From contig CAJCIM010000037.1 of NCBI GenBank assembly GCA_903970395.1, positions 1 to 48,487 of the forward strand: DNA of 48,487 nt. Reading direction: 5' to 3'. This DNA comes from Acidobacteriaceae bacterium (lineage in GTDB: Bacteria > Acidobacteriota > Terriglobia > Terriglobales > Acidobacteriaceae). This document shows, one piece after another, positions 10,330 to 38,552 of the stretch (within the stretch, counting starts at the first letter, position 1; each line of letters begins with the position of its first letter). The notes under the pieces were generated by a model. That model had not been told where the DNA came from. It saw only the letters and a program-made list of their open reading frames with translations, and searched no databases. The translations under genes were made by a program, and so were the position numbers.

Positions 10330-11748
10330 TTAGCTGCGAGAAGCCAGTGCCTTCGGCAGCTTGGTGTAGATGTCCCCGAATCCGCCGTTCGACAGGATCG
10401 CAACGACATCGCCTACCTGCATGCGCGACACAGATTCCGCAACGATTGCGTCGGCGTCGGCGCAGAGCACCGCAGGCACACCACGCTCTTGCAACCCGGC
10501 GACCACATGCGCAGGATCGAGCCGCTCGCCCGCCGGGATTGCCTCGCTCTTGAAGACCGCCGCCAGTACCACTTCATCGGCCAGAGCCAGCGACTCTACG
10601 ATCTCATGCTCGAAGACGCTGCGCCGCAACGTGTTCGAGCGCGGCTCCAGCACCGCCCACAGCCTGCGGCTCGGATACGCGCCACGCAACGCGCGCAGCG
10701 TTTCGCGGATTGCCGTGGGATGGTGCGCGAAGTCGTCGATCACCGTAACGCCCGCAACCTCGGCACGCACCTCAAGCCTGCGCTTCACGCTCTTAAAGCT
10801 GGCCAACGCGTCGACTATCGACTCCACGGGAATGCCCTGCCCTGCCGCCAGCGCCGCCGCAGCCGTCGCATTCAACGCGTTGTGCTCGCCGGCCATCGGC
10901 AGAGCGAGCCGCGCAAATTCGTTTCCGTCACGCAGCAGAGTCCACATCGTCGTTGCGCCGGGCTGCAGATCGACAACACCCCACTTCGAGCTTTCTTCAA
11001 AGCCATAGCGCTCCACCGCGCAGAAGGCCTTTGCGCAGCACTCGGTCACATTCGCGCTGCCATCGAAGGCCACCAGTCGGCCGCGCCTTGGGATGAGATT
11101 CACCATGCGCTTGAACGCGGTCTTCACGGCACTCAGGTCGGTATAGATATCCGCGTGGTCGAACTCAACATGCGTCAGAATCGCAGCGTCGGGAAAATAG
11201 TGCAGGAACTTGGGGCCTTTATCGAAGAACGCCGTATCGTACTCATCGCCTTCGAGAAGAAACGGTCGCGTACCAGGCTCAACATGAAAGCTCGTGCCGA
11301 AGTTCTCTGCAACGCCGCCGATGAGGAACGACGGCAGCCACTTCGCATCGCGCCGTGCGGCTGTAGCGTAGATCCAAGCCAGCATGCTCGTCGTAGTTGT
11401 CTTGCCGTGCGTGCCGCACACAACCAGGCGCTCGCGCCCTGCGAGAAACTCATCATGGATCAACGCGGCCATGCTCGTCATCGGGATACGCTCATCGAGC
11501 ACACGCTCCAGCTCCGGATTACCGCGCGAGATTGCGTTGCCGACGACGACCAGGTCAGGCCGCTCGTCGAGATTGCGCTCGCTGTACGGCTCCATGATCG
11601 CGATGCCCATCGCGCGCAGCTGGTCGCTCATCGGCGGATACGCAGCCGTGTCCGAACCTGTAACACGGTGTCCCTGCGCGCTCAACATCCCCGCCAGCGA
11701 CGCCATCGCCGTTCCACCGATACCAATCAGATGTACATGCTTGCTCAA
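10330..11748 (-). CDS. mpl: UDP-N-acetylmuramate:L-Ala-gamma-D-Glu-meso-DAP ligase
   Basis: Mpl reattaches recycled L-Ala-D-Glu-mDAP tripeptide to UDP-MurNAc in the cytoplasm. Features are the Rossmann-like UDP site HLIGIGGTAMASLAG, the P-loop GTHGKTTTTS, the Mpl-type segment LEGDEYDTAFFDKGPKF, HVEFDHADIY, and the C-terminal domain with AHHPTAIRETL. I chose the TTG at 11748: it overlaps the ldcA stop as TTGA, has GGAG eight bases upstream, and leaves 472 residues starting just before the UDP-binding motif. An ATG at 11781 would lie inside ldcA with no ribosome site. Mpl rather than MurC is favoured by length and the EGDEYDTAFFDK signature. It is the last gene of the mgtC-dapF-ldcA-mpl operon. 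Confidence 0.92.
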   Translation of the reverse strand: MSKHVHLIGIGGTAMASLAGMLSAQGHRVTGSDTAAYPPMSDQLRAMGIAIMEPYSERNLDERPDLVVVGNAISRGNPELERVLDERIPMTSMAALIHDEFLAGRERLVVCGTHGKTTTTSMLAWIYATAARRDAKWLPSFLIGGVAENFGTSFHVEPGTRPFLLEGDEYDTAFFDKGPKFLHYFPDAAILTHVEFDHADIYTDLSAVKTAFKRMVNLIPRRGRLVAFDGSANVTECCAKAFCAVERYGFEESSKWGVVDLQPGATTMWTLLRDGNEFARLALPMAGEHNALNATAAAALAAGQGIPVESIVDALASFKSVKRRLEVRAEVAGVTVIDDFAHHPTAIRETLRALRGAYPSRRLWAVLEPRSNTLRRSVFEHEIVESLALADEVVLAAVFKSEAIPAGERLDPAHVVAGLQERGVPAVLCADADAIVAESVSRMQVGDVVAILSNGGFGDIYTKLPKALASRS

Positions 11749-12659
11749 ATGCTCAGCTCCGTTCCCTTCAACTTCACCCATGCGCCCAGCGGCATTGAGC
11801 GGTTGGCGCGCGACAAATGCCCACTCTGAAGACCGATCAGCACAGGCCCATCAAACTCTCTCAACGCATGCAGACACGCAGCCTCCAGCAGTGGCATCTC
11901 GCTATCGTCCACGTTGGCGCTCATATCGCCGAGCACAATGGCGCGCACGTTCTGCAATGCCCCAGCAAACCGCAGATGCTGCAACATCCTGTCCCATTGG
12001 TACGGCTTGGTTCCGATGTCTTCAAGAAAGAGCACACAAGGCTCGTCAATCTTCAGCGCCCACGGCGTCCCCAACGCGGCGCACAAAATCGACACGCATC
12101 CACCGAGCAGCCGACCCTCCGCATCTCCGCCACGCAGCACGCGCACGCCGTCAGGAGATCCAACGCTCCATGCACTATTGCCTTCAAGCGCAGCCTTCCA
12201 GGTGCGTTCGTCAACACCATCGGCCTTTGACCAGTCCGCAGCAACCATCGGCGCATAAAACGTATGCAGAGTGCACTCATTCCAGAACCAGACATGGAGC
12301 GAGGTGTGATCGCTGTAACCCACGAACATTTTGGGATTGCTGCGAACAAGCTCAGCATTCAACAGCGGCAGTAGCTCCGCCGAACCCCAGCCGCCGCGCG
12401 TGCATACGATGCCATCGATCGACGCATCTGCAAAGGCCGCGTGAAGATCGGCAACACGTTCCTCCGCCGTGCCCGCGTAGTACAAAGGCCGACGCGAGAA
12501 CGCATGAGGCATCACCACCGGCTCATAGCCAAATGCGCGCATTCGTTCGACACCGGCAGCAATCAGCTCCGGCTTCGCAGCACTCGCAGGCGACACCACG
12601 GCAATACGGCTGCCGTGCTTCAACCTCGGACTTGGGACAACCTCTCGACGCATGAACAC
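11745..12659 (-). CDS. ldcA: LD-carboxypeptidase (S66 family)
   Basis: 304 residues. The S66 nucleophile is Ser93 in TRGGWGSAELL. The later Glu (FLEDIGTKPYQWDRML) and His (LQSGHLSRANRSMPLG) complete the Ser-Glu-His triad. There is no signal peptide, so it is cytoplasmic. It trims the terminal D-Ala from recycled tetrapeptides to give tripeptide, the substrate of Mpl encoded directly downstream. The GTG start at 12659 overlaps the dapF stop as TAGTG, and an ATG two codons later is an alternative. Its 3' end overlaps the mpl start by 4 bases. Confidence 0.93.
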   Translation of the reverse strand: MFMRREVVPSPRLKHGSRIAVVSPASAAKPELIAAGVERMRAFGYEPVVMPHAFSRRPLYYAGTAEERVADLHAAFADASIDGIVCTRGGWGSAELLPLLNAELVRSNPKMFVGYSDHTSLHVWFWNECTLHTFYAPMVAADWSKADGVDERTWKAALEGNSAWSVGSPDGVRVLRGGDAEGRLLGGCVSILCAALGTPWALKIDEPCVLFLEDIGTKPYQWDRMLQHLRFAGALQNVRAIVLGDMSANVDDSEMPLLEAACLHALREFDGPVLIGLQSGHLSRANRSMPLGAWVKLKGTELSI

Positions 12660-13474
12660 TAACCCGCGAACTCCGCTTCACCGCGACAGATAATCTCCGC
12701 CGGGCCGGTGAGCCTCATCTCAGCCTCGTTGGCCGGCCACACCACATGCTGCGAGCCACCCTGTGCAATCGCCGTCAACTCGCGCGCAACGCCCTTCAAT
12801 ACCATCGACGCAGCACTTGAGGCGCAGGTACCGGTGCCGCTCGATGTGGTCGGTCCGCAGCCACGCTCGTAGATGCGGAACTCGATCTCGCCCGGCTTGC
12901 GCACGAGTACAAACTCCACGTTCGTGCCGAACTTGAACATCGGGTCTACGCTTATCCTGGCACCAAGCTCCTGCCAGCTGAGGCCGTGGCTCGCGAACAC
13001 ATCGTTGTCGACGAAGATGACGTAGTGCGGATTGCCGACGTTGACCATCGCACCGTCGATGATGCCATCTACGCCATCGATCTCGATCTTGCGCGGCATC
13101 ACCCGCGGCACTCCCATGCCGCTCTCAATCCACCATTGCGGCCCGTTATGCTCAATAACTTGGCACGTCCGTATACCACCATGTGTACCCAGTGCGACGC
13201 TCTCCCGGCCTTCGCTGGCGGCCAGCCACGCAGCTACGCAGCGTGTACCGTTGCCGCTCAGTTCCGCCTCACTGCCGTCTGCATTGAACAACCGCAGAAA
13301 CAAGCTTCCGTCCGCGCGGCGGTCGACGAACTCGATGCCATCCGCTCCAATGCCTGTGTTGCGAGCGCAAAGCTTCCGAGCCATCACCGCATGTCGACCC
13401 TGCGCAGCGGTCTCTTCGATCACCAGAAAATCATTGCCGCACGCGTGCGCCTTCACAAACTTCACACTGCCCAC
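12659..13474 (-). CDS. dapF: diaminopimelate epimerase homologue with both catalytic Cys replaced by Ser
   Basis: 271 residues with the full DapF fold signature: HACGNDFLVIE near the N-terminus, FNADGSEAELSGNGTRC, GNPHYV, and YERGCGPTTSSGTGTC. In DapF the two acid/base cysteines are in C-GNG and A-C-GTG. Here both are Ser (Ser73 and Ser212, both AGC codons). The ERG glutamate (Glu203) and substrate-binding asparagines remain. Nearby extra cysteines are at 12, 79, 206 and 217. Cys-to-Ser variants of canonical DapF are strongly impaired, so racemase activity is doubtful and elimination or binding is possible. The GTG start overlaps the mgtC stop as TAGTG. The family is certain but the function is not. 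Confidence 0.85.
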   Translation of the reverse strand: MGSVKFVKAHACGNDFLVIEETAAQGRHAVMARKLCARNTGIGADGIEFVDRRADGSLFLRLFNADGSEAELSGNGTRCVAAWLAASEGRESVALGTHGGIRTCQVIEHNGPQWWIESGMGVPRVMPRKIEIDGVDGIIDGAMVNVGNPHYVIFVDNDVFASHGLSWQELGARISVDPMFKFGTNVEFVLVRKPGEIEFRIYERGCGPTTSSGTGTCASSAASMVLKGVARELTAIAQGGSQHVVWPANEAEMRLTGPAEIICRGEAEFAG

Positions 13475-14250
13475 TACTCTTCCTCCGAATCTCTGAACAC
13501 CACCACTTGGTCGGCGGCATCGCTGGCGCGCAACTCCTTGAGCAGCCGCGCGTGCGTCTTCACCGTAGCCAGCACAGTAAACGCGACACGCTCGATACCC
13601 GCGACGTTATCACGCTCTAACACACTCAGCCGCTGGCCTGCCGAATCGAGCGCATGCAGAATCGCACTCTGCATACGGTACAGCGCCTGCTCAACATCCT
13701 GAGCCATCGCCACCGCACGTTCTCCCTCCGCCATTTTAGCGGGCAGGATTGGGCCCACATTTGCACGTACCTCATAGATCATTGGATAGCGTTTGCGCCC
13801 GAGCTTCATTTCGAAGAAGCCCACCAGTTGCAGCGCCATCAGCACGAGTATTGTGGCCGCGAGCGCAACGAAGTATAACCCCGCACCGCATGTCATACCA
13901 ATCGCGGCCACCACAAATACGGTCGCCGCACTCGTTAGACCGTAGACCCTCGCTTTAGAGTGAAGAATAAGGCCCGCACCTAAAAACCCGACACCCTGAA
14001 CAATGTTCGCGGCCACCTGCCCCTTGTTCGCTGTCGACTCACCGGCGAGCACGATGCTCATGATCGTAAACAGCGCCGAACCCATGCAAATCAGCATGTT
14101 AGTGCGCAGGCCAGAGTCCTTTTGACGCCACTCGCGTTCGATTCCGACGATACCACCCATCGCGCACGACAGCAGCAACCGCTTCACCGACGAACCCGAG
14201 AGCACCGCGTCTTCAACCGCAGAGAAGTGGATGTTTATCTGACCTATCAT
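13474..14250 (-). CDS. MgtC/SapB family membrane protein
   Basis: 258 residues. Four or five membrane spans carry the MgtC signatures GIVGIEREWRQKDSGLRTNML and GVGFLGAGLIL. A cytoplasmic C-terminal domain of about 90 residues follows (from about 168; ends with acidic DSEEE), resembling the ACT-like tail of MgtC proteins. MgtC proteins are linked to growth at low magnesium and, in pathogens, to inhibition of ATP synthase and to intramacrophage survival. It heads the operon with dapF, ldcA and mpl, which hints at a link to envelope homeostasis. The ATG at 14250 has a -10-like TATTCT six bases upstream. Confidence 0.9.
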   Translation of the reverse strand: MIGQINIHFSAVEDAVLSGSSVKRLLLSCAMGGIVGIEREWRQKDSGLRTNMLICMGSALFTIMSIVLAGESTANKGQVAANIVQGVGFLGAGLILHSKARVYGLTSAATVFVVAAIGMTCGAGLYFVALAATILVLMALQLVGFFEMKLGRKRYPMIYEVRANVGPILPAKMAEGERAVAMAQDVEQALYRMQSAILHALDSAGQRLSVLERDNVAGIERVAFTVLATVKTHARLLKELRASDAADQVVVFRDSEEE

Positions 14251-15116: not shown

Positions 15117-16844
15117 TTACTTTGGGGAATTCTGTCCTTTGGCTGACCAGACCTGACTCTGATAAACACGGGCGCACGGCTGCCCCGTGGTGCACAGCAC
15201 CTCAAGTTCCCTCAGGTCATCAGGGTGCACATCCACAGCCTTCGCTACTGGGTCGCCCGCGATTGCGATGACGAACGCCGCGCTATGCGCAGGGTCTTTC
15301 AGCGCAATCTCAAATGCCTGTTCGTCGTTTTCGCTGACCATGCTGTTCAGCGTGCGCCCCGCCACCTGCACGGCGCCCACATGAGCAGAAAGGGCCATCA
15401 TCACCGGCTCATCGGGGGGCATCTGCTCCAGAGAGAACGCAATCGCGCGCTCCAATGCCACACGCGTCGTCGCATTCACCTGGGCTTCCTTCAGCACCAG
15501 CGGAATGCGGTACATTATGCCCACGCTGTTCGCTACGCACAACAGCACGGCGGCCGGTTGCCAGAAGCGAGCGGCAATGCGCGCCCAGCCCTCCGTCTTA
15601 CCGCGCAGCCACACATCGAGCCGCTCCGCCGCGAGCGCGGCATACACTGCCAGAGCAGGCAACATCCCCATACCGTAGCGCGCGTTGTAGTATGCGTGCG
15701 GCCACAACTGAGGAATAAAAATCGGCACTGACCCGTACGCAACCGAGTACACATAGAACGGCAGTGGCACCCACAGCAGCAGTGCGTAACGCCACGAAGC
15801 GTTCGGCTGTTCTGAGCCCGGCCCTGCTGATACTTTGCGGCGCAGTTGCAGCCATATGCCATAAAGCGCCGCGGTCATCACACCAAAGCCGGTCTCCCAG
15901 ACGGATGCATCGATCTGCGCCGTACGCGTGTAGAACAGCAGCGCCCAACCAGGATTGTGCCAGCCGCGATAATGCTGCCCCGGCGGCGCGGTGCGGCGCT
16001 CAATCTGAGCGGCAGAGTACGGCCCGCGCATGAAGTCCAGCCAGTCATGCTCGAAGTGGGCGTTGTACCAGAACCACAGCAGCGGCCCCGCCGCACACAT
16101 CATGGTGAAGATGACGAACGCTACCATCACGTTTCGGCGCAGTTCCGCCGCAGATTTCCAAATCTCCAACGCAAAACAACACCACACTGCCGCACCGACG
16201 ATCCAGCCGTCGTAGCGCGTAAACACCATCCCCAGCACCAGCAGTCCGGTGAGCACCATGCGTCCCTTGGCCGCTGCGGCGCGCCCTTCCTGCAATGCAG
16301 CGATGCCTTCCATCGTCGCCACCACGGTCCACACAAACAGCGCGAGGTACAGAGCTTCGGTCATCGCGGTGGTCGCCAGAAAGAGAAGGTTCGCATTCAG
16401 CGCATAGAACGCCGTGGCGACAAACGCCCAGCGTATGCGCATCATGCGCCGCGAGAGCCGCCACATGCCTGCCACGCTGACCGCAAAGCTCAACGTCGAC
16501 ATTGGTGCGCCTGCCAGCCCTGTCTGCCATAGCTGCATGCTATGGATGAACGGCAGCATCAGCACATGAGGCAATGGCAGCCAGACACCACCGAGCTGCC
16601 CGAGCCCCGGATAATGCGAGTCGATGATGCGTCGCGCGATCGCGAGATGCGCAACCGCATCGCCGTAGAGTAGCAGATACCCTTTGGAGTAGCAGATTAA
16701 CAGTGCGCCGAACGCGAGCAACACACCCGCGGCAAACGCAGGGTAAGTCTCTCCGCGCTGCGCAGGCCGCACAGCCTCAGGATCGCCCGGCAACACCGCC
16801 GATATCTGCCGCTCCGGCACTCTGCGCAACTCGGCCCTCCTCAT
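15117..16844 (-). CDS. polytopic membrane glycosyltransferase (GT39/ArnT-like, GT-C fold)
   Basis: About 575 residues with roughly 10-12 membrane spans. The first extracytoplasmic loop holds YGDAVAHLAIARRI, with an Asp in the place of the GT-C catalytic acid, followed by GQLGGVWLPLPHVLMLPF. This is typical of lipid-phosphate-sugar dependent transferases of the ArnT/PMT type. The C-terminal 120 residues are soluble and probably periplasmic. It should move a sugar from a polyprenyl-phosphate donor to an envelope acceptor; donor and acceptor are unknown. The ATG at 16844 has GGAG close upstream. It follows pfkB by about 36 bases, so it may belong to the mtnP-pfkB transcript. Confidence 0.78.
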   Translation of the reverse strand: MRRAELRRVPERQISAVLPGDPEAVRPAQRGETYPAFAAGVLLAFGALLICYSKGYLLLYGDAVAHLAIARRIIDSHYPGLGQLGGVWLPLPHVLMLPFIHSMQLWQTGLAGAPMSTLSFAVSVAGMWRLSRRMMRIRWAFVATAFYALNANLLFLATTAMTEALYLALFVWTVVATMEGIAALQEGRAAAAKGRMVLTGLLVLGMVFTRYDGWIVGAAVWCCFALEIWKSAAELRRNVMVAFVIFTMMCAAGPLLWFWYNAHFEHDWLDFMRGPYSAAQIERRTAPPGQHYRGWHNPGWALLFYTRTAQIDASVWETGFGVMTAALYGIWLQLRRKVSAGPGSEQPNASWRYALLLWVPLPFYVYSVAYGSVPIFIPQLWPHAYYNARYGMGMLPALAVYAALAAERLDVWLRGKTEGWARIAARFWQPAAVLLCVANSVGIMYRIPLVLKEAQVNATTRVALERAIAFSLEQMPPDEPVMMALSAHVGAVQVAGRTLNSMVSENDEQAFEIALKDPAHSAAFVIAIAGDPVAKAVDVHPDDLRELEVLCTTGQPCARVYQSQVWSAKGQNSPK

Positions 16845-16880
16845 CACAGCTCCATCGTCGTACGTTTCATCCCGCCCAGC

Positions 16881-34680: not shown

Positions 34681-37451
<2,771 letters not shown>

Positions 37452-37455
<4 letters not shown>

Positions 37456-38552
37456 GCAGCCACCTCATCTCGCACGATCTCCCGAGGAGCCACGCCTTCC
37501 AGCGCCTTCGCAATCGCGGCAATGTGCTCCGGAGTATTCCCACAGCACCCACCCGCAATATTAATCAAACCATCCTTTGCAAACCCACCCAGAAACCGCG
37601 CCATGTCCTCCGGCCCAAGGTCAAACCCCGTATCCGACAGCGGATTCGGCAACCCCGCATTCGGATACGCCGACACCGCCACATCTGCCTTCTCCGAAAG
37701 CTCACTCAAAAACGGATACATCAGATCCGGACCCAGCGAGCAGTTCAACCCCACACTCAGCGGCTTCACATGCTTCACCGCGTTCCAGAACGCCTCGGTC
37801 GTCTGCGCCGAGATCAGCGTCTCGCCACCACGCCCCACCGCCGCCGAGATGCTCACCGGCAGAGTGACCTTGTCCTCATCAAAAACCTCGCGGATCGCCA
37901 CCAGAGCAGCCTTCGCATTCAGGCTGTCGAAGATCGTCTCCACCAGCAACAAGTCACTGCCGCCGGCGATCAGCCCGCGTACCTGCTCCTTGTAGGCCGT
38001 AAGCACCTGGTCAAATGTCACCACGCGAAATCCGGCATCGTCCGCATCCGGTGAATTGGAGAGCGACACCGTCAGCGGCCCAATCGCACCGGCCACAAAC
38101 CGCTGCCGGCCCGTCTCATTCGCCACACGGTCGGCCCACTCGCGACACTGCTTCGCCGACTGCTCATTGATCTCCCACGCCAGCCCGCTCAGCATCGAGT
38201 CCTCGATGATCTTTTGATAAAACTCCGGATCCTTGCGCCCGCCATGCTCACGCGGATCATCCACAAAGAACTCGCTCTGCGTAATACTCGTCGCGCCAAA
38301 CGTGTTCGTCTCGATGATGTCCGCGCCCGCCTCCAGAAACCGCCGGTGGATATCGCAAATCATCTTCGGCTGCGTCAGCGAGAACAGGTCGCCGTTGTTC
38401 AGCAGGTCCTTCGTCGAGTTCGCAAACCGCTCCCCGCGAATGTCCTTCTCCGTCATCCCGTACGTGCGGATCGTCGTGCCCATCGCTCCATCAATGATGG
38501 CAATGCGCTTCTCAAGAATCTTTTCCAGGGGATGCTGTTGAGTCTTCCTCAT
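37452..38552 (-). CDS. metH: methionine synthase, part 1 (homocysteine S-methyltransferase domain)
   Basis: 366 residues forming the N-terminal Zn-dependent barrel of Met[35 protein letters not shown], and the zinc cysteines in GLNCSLGP and [11 protein letters not shown]. It activates homocysteine thiolate for methylation by the B12 module in part 2. Full-length MetH is normally one chain of about 1,200 residues; here the break falls exactly at the domain boundary and the two cistrons overlap by 4 bases. All key residues are intact, so this is a genuine split gene and not a frameshift. The start has GAGAGGA upstream. Confidence 0.93.

Follow-up and report, generated by a model that had tools for sequence, protein, structure and literature searches.

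The window analysed here, the whole of a 48,487-nucleotide stretch of contig CAJCIM010000037.1 from an Acidobacteriaceae bacterium (GCA_903970395.1), carries on its minus strand, at 12659..13474, a homologue of the diaminopimelate (DAP) epimerase DapF in which serine occupies both positions of the catalytic cysteine pair. The gene starts with GTG at 13474, ends with a TAG stop at 12661-12659 and encodes 271 amino acids. Over its full length the protein matches the TIGR00652 DapF equivalog profile (198.6 bits; curated cut-off 114.65), Pfam PF01678 matches it in two stretches, and its nearest solved sequences are DapFs. Aligned with homologues that have both cysteines (Cys/Cys), residues 73 and 212 fall in the two Cys columns. 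Both are serine (hence Ser/Ser): Ser73 in an SGNG motif, with codon AGC at 13256..13258 of the minus strand, and Ser212 in an SSGTG motif, again with codon AGC, at 12839..12841 of the same strand. The original prediction, made from the sequence alone, had placed serines at exactly these positions, leaving the strand unstated, and had described the fold motifs, the ERG glutamate and the substrate asparagines as present, which they are. The two catalytic cysteines on opposite faces are missing, and the pocket residues N14, N64, N148, N185, E203 and R204 are all there; we take these, from the H. influenzae DapF structure, to bind the distal L-centre of DAP. Seven other cysteines occur in the protein, at positions 12, 36, 79, 104, 206, 217 and 263.

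An AlphaFold2 model of the protein (mean pLDDT 97.4, pTM 0.93) has the two-domain DapF fold. Its top Foldseek match is 9mro_A (E 1.1e-28), and ranks 1-26 are all DapF or O-ureidoserine racemase, including the C73S and C217S mutants of the H. influenzae enzyme. Helices begin at residues 74 and 213 of the model, which puts Ser73 and Ser212 at helix N-termini, where the catalytic Cys of a relative also lies according to PMC11602996. In the proline racemase superfamily, according to PMC4113996, the catalytic Ser is positioned by an Asn three residues on (Ser90/Asn93). The window protein does not have this motif, as Ser73 is followed by G-N-G, with Asn at +2. It is best seen as a new DapF variant, one that lacks the Cys pair and has the other defining features that we tested.

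Conservation, distribution and origin of the serine pair

Residues were compared in two alignments with identical proteins collapsed, a narrower one of 156 Ser/Ser and 75 Cys/Cys rows and a wider one of 287 rows read at both sites, outside which 7 further rows are partial. The wider set contains 174 Ser/Ser, 109 Cys/Cys and 4 Cys/Ser rows, with no Ser/Cys and no other pair. Asn at +2 from the first catalytic position is found in 149/156 Ser/Ser and 75/75 Cys/Cys rows of the narrower set, and the six pocket residues are complete in 170 of the 174 Ser/Ser rows of the wider one. Among 173 distinct Ser/Ser rows the codons at the two sites are TCN/TCN in 115, AGY/TCN in 27, AGY/AGY in 24 and TCN/AGY in 7; both codon families are found at both sites, so that serine has persisted through switches from one codon family to the other. 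Of the 12 nearest same-genus pairs listed, 11 have a Nei-Gojobori dN/dS of 0.07-0.16 and the twelfth is saturated; with dS at 1.0-2.2 these ratios are rough. An assembly of 214 contigs at 94.73% completeness and 3.71% contamination could in principle harbour a sequencing error, an assembly error or a decaying gene. The same residues in 174 distinct sequences, the codon mix and the dN/dS values refute this for practical purposes, and together with the restricted residue pairs and the kept pocket they uphold the earlier argument that the changes are not random decay.

That argument had also drawn on extra cysteines beside the motifs, and this part did not hold: the cysteines exist, but they vary within the Ser/Ser proteins and occur in Cys/Cys ones too. 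Cys12 is present in 56/155 Ser/Ser and 8/75 Cys/Cys rows, Cys79 in 141/156 and 74/75, Cys206 in 26/156 and 2/75, and Cys217 in 116/156 and 55/75. These counts rule out compensating cysteines as an explanation for the whole clade. Besides 73 and 212, the columns that most separate Ser/Ser from Cys/Cys proteins are 201, 9, 114, 82 and 167. These positions, along with Ser211 (124/156 Ser/Ser rows versus 4/75 Cys/Cys), are candidates for tuning the serines.

The Ser/Ser form is widespread in the phylum, far beyond what a single window could reveal. Matches to TIGR00652 occur in 73 of 81 relatives and in 384 of 396 genomes of the phylum with completeness of at least 85, the survey genomes having been placed in Acidobacteriota through named relatives such as L034-L040. 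The residues were read in 207 genomes, of which 153 are Ser/Ser, 46 Cys/Cys, 4 Cys/Ser and 4 Ser/Ser plus Cys/Cys. This count covers loci read only, keeps identical proteins apart, and excludes rows gapped at either position as well as L288, which is presumably PhzF-like by its motif. By family, 51 of the 90 read are Ser/Ser, 30 Cys/Cys, 4 Cys/Ser and 5 mixed, so that Ser/Ser forms appear in 56/90. There are 94 numbered families; the single genomes drawn from f34, f67 and f84 gave no match, and the f77 match is partial. The initial alignment, in which identical proteins were not collapsed, consisted mostly of best-scoring TIGR00652 matches, to which 34 genomes from 34 families were added (f36 and f81 had already been read and f23 partly). 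Some organisms are probably shared between the two collections, since the contigs of L051 and L204, and those of L035 and L114, match in length. In a GTDB-wide scan that kept 80 loci of 580 relatives, the 22 Ser/Ser loci came from Acidobacteriota (17) and Candidatus Aminicenantes (5), and the other 58, from Bacteroidota, Bacillota, Cyanobacteriota and further groups, were all Cys/Cys; with 58 Cys/Cys loci read outside the phylum, Ser/Ser forms may still occur in other phyla.

Among the genomes read, Ser/Ser and Cys/Cys forms occur together in families f31 and f57 alone, with the proviso that a second match in G335 (8% contamination) is unread. Two f57 genomes (G422 and G226) hold both. In family f31 (L259-L264, L267, L274 and L275) a divergent Cys/Cys DapF-like protein, with motifs such as CSNGSR and CCGTG, occurs alone or beside a long-branch Ser/Ser DapF, some members of which lack parts of the GNG and GTG motifs.

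The DapF tree with both residues mapped, which had been proposed as a check, places Ser/Ser forms in two DapF groups. In a tree of 50 rows, 18 form the main Ser/Ser group (support 96/94), which is placed among ordinary Cys/Cys DapFs from other phyla. A second acidobacterial group, recognisable by an ERGVExET motif, is mostly Cys/Cys and includes four Cys/Ser rows (f17, f27, f49, f82) and one Ser/Ser row (f12). A first tree without lineages of the ERGVExET group had given one main Ser/Ser clade and a separate long branch of four rows. For all trees the rows had been thinned by identity and the gappy ones removed; the 50-row tree includes three of the four Cys/Ser rows, is also without L324, L272, L344, L345 and L340, and its bootstrap had not settled. 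A single origin of all Ser/Ser rows is rejected (p-AU 0.022, for a group named after the earlier tree had been seen), and a single origin without the f12 row is not (p-AU 0.412). Thus, as judged from these trees, the Ser/Ser pair most likely arose at least twice, and Cys/Ser is a possible intermediate toward it. The f12 protein (L323, genome G081) is the apparently independent case, and each of the four Cys/Ser DapFs (L209, L321, L325, L331), possible intermediates, is the sole DapF match in its genome.

Pathway genes and gene neighbourhood

A search of the genome for a second, canonical DapF had been suggested. Protein searches and searches with PF01678 and TIGR00652 found none in the assembly, leaving the gene at 12659-13474 as the sole copy, and two one-contig genomes of the same genus (G002 and G007) have a single DapF match each, both Ser/Ser. 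The C-terminal domain of DAP dehydrogenase, Ddh (PF16654), was found in 0/81 genomes, the organism's own included, which gives no sign of a bypass of DapF by this enzyme; the same search detected it in 2/14 control genomes, C. glutamicum and Bacteroides ihuae. For LL-DAP aminotransferase, TIGR03542 gave no match over its cut-off in the 81 genomes. The best of four hits in the own genome, the only one of the four that was scanned, lies above the alanine transaminase model in score and below the DapL models, and the presence of DapD points to the succinylase route instead.

The LL-DAP route is represented in this organism by two genes on its contig C26, dapA (311 bits; cut-off 206) and dapD, encoding the succinyltransferase (291 bits; cut-off 204), which together lead toward LL-DAP. 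Downstream of the epimerase step, LysA scores 483 bits (cut-off 297.9), and MurE, split over contig ends, carries a DNPR motif and is taken, like LysA and Mpl, as a user of meso-DAP. Across the survey, LysA has a match in 59/59 good genomes and exceeds its cut-off in 72/81; G069 and G077 have weak matches under it. Two genes for TMEM175-like potassium channels lie beside dapA and dapD on contig C26 (L351:9165-9899 and L351:1957-2553), and one also adjoins a dihydrodipicolinate-synthase-family gene in G007.

Within the window, dapF stands between mgtC upstream and ldcA, then mpl, downstream, all on the minus strand. The MgtC-family membrane protein (13474..14250; PF02308) has a stop codon that overlaps the dapF start by one base. 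The LdcA-like LD-carboxypeptidase of peptidase family S66 (11745..12659; PF02016 and PF17676) scores 133.5 bits against the NCBIfam muramoyltetrapeptide carboxypeptidase model, short of the 378 required; one base of the dapF stop is shared with the first possible start codon (GTG) of this gene, and both junctions read TAGTG. The third gene (10330..11781) encodes Mpl, the UDP-N-acetylmuramate:L-Ala-gamma-D-Glu-meso-DAP ligase of murein recycling (TIGR01081, 407.6 bits; cut-off 388.7). Of 237 DapF loci with unequal flanks, 64 have the LdcA cluster and 60 the Mpl cluster, always on the strand of dapF and always beside Ser/Ser DapFs (two rows being partial). With two neighbours whose products work on murein peptides that contain DAP, the gene order is strong evidence of a DAP context.

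Two further features lie on the minus strand. A 576-amino-acid protein without a Pfam match (15120-16847) has matches to 61 members of a cluster that is encoded upstream of a Ser/Ser dapF, and on its strand, in each of 62 loci. Further away, at 34684-38552, a cobalamin-dependent methionine synthase is split into two adjacent open reading frames (ORFs), one with the homocysteine methyltransferase domain and the other with the pterin, B12 and activation domains.

Interpretation and comparison with known enzymes

The usual explanation of cofactor-independent amino acid racemases is a thiolate/thiol pair. In these bacteria, either the serines do the job that textbooks assign to cysteines, or another enzyme does it. 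We consider the window protein to be the diaminopimelate epimerase of its organism, interconverting LL- and meso-DAP with Ser/Ser as its acid-base pair, at a probability of roughly 0.65. A working Ser/Ser epimerase was one of four options in the original prediction, the others being a different isomerase, a lyase and an mDAP-binding regulator. It is the best fit: pocket, pathway genes and gene order all match those of an ordinary DapF, and Ser/Ser and Cys/Cys forms were never read together outside f31 and f57. We rate the others lower.

As to mechanism, Ser73 and Ser212 would replace the Cys pair in the two-face proton transfer that converts LL-DAP to meso-DAP, or alternatively would position a water or partner residue that carries the transfer. 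The serine oxygens, which we infer to act as acid and base, may be helped by helix dipoles, by Glu203 and, where present, by His150, and DAP would then be epimerised at a useful rate. The meso-DAP product would feed lysine, murein synthesis and murein recycling. A broader proposal is that much of the phylum makes meso-DAP with a cofactor-independent epimerase that has no catalytic cysteine, using serines at helix N-termini with or without His150, at an adequate rate and with at least two origins, one perhaps via Cys/Ser; this is tentative, and we would put it at slightly less than even odds.

Several results weigh against the assignment. The earlier statement that Cys-to-Ser mutants of DapF are poor epimerases is backed by relatives: in excerpts of the respective papers, engineered Cys-to-Ser PddB retains < 0.1% of wild-type activity, which is said to match Mt-DapF (PMC8225329), and that of Cys-to-Ser HisR is greatly reduced (PMC11602996). 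A 2021 review, in its section on active-site bases, describes Cys as preferred to Ser or Thr; the exceptions named there are Cys/Thr enzymes, with no cofactor-independent Ser/Ser enzyme among them (PMC8142540). The dyad partner His (150 in the window protein), called essential in a passage of PMC5885031, is His in only 122/156 Ser/Ser rows of the narrower set (Gln 28, Asn 3, Val 3) versus 75/75 Cys/Cys, and in 125/174 versus 99/109 of the wider one. A fixed His150 that activates Ser is weakened as a general answer by its loss in about one-fifth to one-quarter of Ser/Ser rows. In the window protein itself, another cysteine, for example Cys79, might take part. On the other side, a natural Ser/Cys 4-hydroxyproline epimerase of the proline racemase superfamily is active and a Ser/Thr relative is a dehydratase (PMC4113996), and the wild-type M. 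tuberculosis DapF is itself slow, with 0.1465 in the place of kcat in the tabulated excerpt of PMC8142540 and a kcat/Km of 883 per M per s.

Genomic exceptions also weigh against the assignment. In f7, a family of the same class as the window, a real DapF match is present in 7/61 genomes and absent from 54, and well-complete genomes of this family have any DapF match in only 6/39; all 7 real DapFs are Ser/Ser, and an eighth match (G472) looks PhzF-like. DapF-less f7 genomes nevertheless keep those parts of the DAP pathway that were tested (loci L352 and L354). A dapE-like gene, dapA and a dapD match are present in both G067 and G469, with dapB as well in G469; G067 and G075 have LysA and DNPR-type MurE, and no DAP dehydrogenase was found in these two. 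The meso-DAP of such genomes thus comes from some other enzyme, one that might conceivably serve more widely. DapF matches are missing altogether from three well-complete genomes in the first survey (G064, G067 and G075); G064 has 100% estimated completeness, and the two other members read from its family are Ser/Ser. In f31, G138 and G268 carry the long-branch Ser/Ser DapF plus the divergent Cys/Cys paralogue, G104, G156 and others show the paralogue alone, and 8 of the other 10 Ser/Ser genomes (12 in total) have a second or third match that is unread (G148, G173, G282, G314, G322, G379, G419 and G425). The count of 207 genomes therefore probably hides further pairs in this family, where the Ser/Ser form looks like an addition. 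The results from f7, f31, f57 and G064 are the reason that we hold our confidence at 0.65. Ten ORFs scanned near LysA in f7 and G064 included no epimerase candidate. A possible lead lies in the DapF-less G067, about 0.6 kb from its dapE-like gene: a cystathionine gamma-lyase-like, pyridoxal phosphate (PLP)-dependent enzyme (L352:4503-5642, minus strand), under all curated cut-offs shown, with a weaker match to an alanine/glutamate racemase model.

The main competing explanation is that an unrecognised enzyme, such as a PLP-dependent racemase, epimerises DAP, and that the Ser/Ser DapF binds DAP as the isomerase of another step, for example in murein recycling with the neighbouring ldcA and mpl. 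It would account for f7, which mostly has no DapF and keeps the rest of the pathway that was tested, for the loss of His150 in part of the Ser/Ser set, and for the two f31 genomes with both forms, probably joined by others of that family. We nevertheless find it unlikely: the DAP pocket is kept almost throughout the Ser/Ser rows, the two forms were not read together outside f31 and f57 (the second match of G335 being unread), the f7 genera that have DapF have the Ser/Ser form, so that f7 may simply have replaced DapF, and our searches identified no rival gene. Should it be right, an essential lysine and murein enzyme of Acidobacteriota is still to be identified.

A kept pocket with lost acid-base cysteines would also suit a protein that senses DAP or binds a partner without catalysis. 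In E. coli, RppH is such a partner of DapF, and an RppH-DapF complex is known (PDB 6d13, by title). We regard such a role as quite improbable, since most Ser/Ser genomes would then have no known epimerase, and since a pure binder could vary at the two sites, whereas these are Ser or Cys only through deep divergence, switches of codon family and a second origin. A lyase or dehydratase, in which one face takes the proton and a leaving group departs, is a shade less probable again. It has precedents: the earlier claim that loss of one Cys gives dehydratases is backed by Ser/Thr and Cys/Thr relatives of proline racemase (PMC4113996, PMC8142540), and a Cys-to-Ser glutamate racemase eliminates chloroglutamate (PMC8142540). 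DAP, however, has no beta leaving group, the pathway and gene-order context is that of DAP, and both positions are conserved, not one.

No natural Ser/Ser DapF was apparent from the titles and abstract starts among the literature matches listed, most subscription journals being outside their coverage; matches on acidobacterial peptidoglycan chemistry, judged in the same way, offered nothing of use. With ordinary DapF (TIGR00652, PF01678; PDB 9mro, 5m47, 2gke, 3ejx) the window protein shares the fold, the pocket Asn, Glu and Arg residues, the helix N-terminal sites and the pathway context; it differs in having Ser for both proton-transfer cysteines, and the His partner varies among Ser/Ser forms. 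The engineered PddB, HisR and H. influenzae DapF proteins (PDB 2q9h, C73S; 2q9j, C217S) carry the same substitution at one same position; these are single and made in the laboratory, with PddB near-inactive and HisR greatly reduced, whereas the window protein is natural and double. The aspartate/glutamate racemases EcL-DER and MMP0739 (Cys/Thr) belong to a different fold family than DapF. They are cofactor-independent enzymes with a natural loss of one cysteine, in which one Cys is kept and directionality is altered or predicted to be altered, according to PMC8142540. The proline racemase superfamily, of related fold, has natural Ser at the first catalytic position, and passages of PMC4113996 describe an active epimerase with Ser93 and a Cys (236 or 255, depending on the passage), and the t3HypD B9K4G4 with Ser90/Thr256. 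In that epimerase Ser serves on one face and the substrate is different, whereas in the window protein both faces are Ser.

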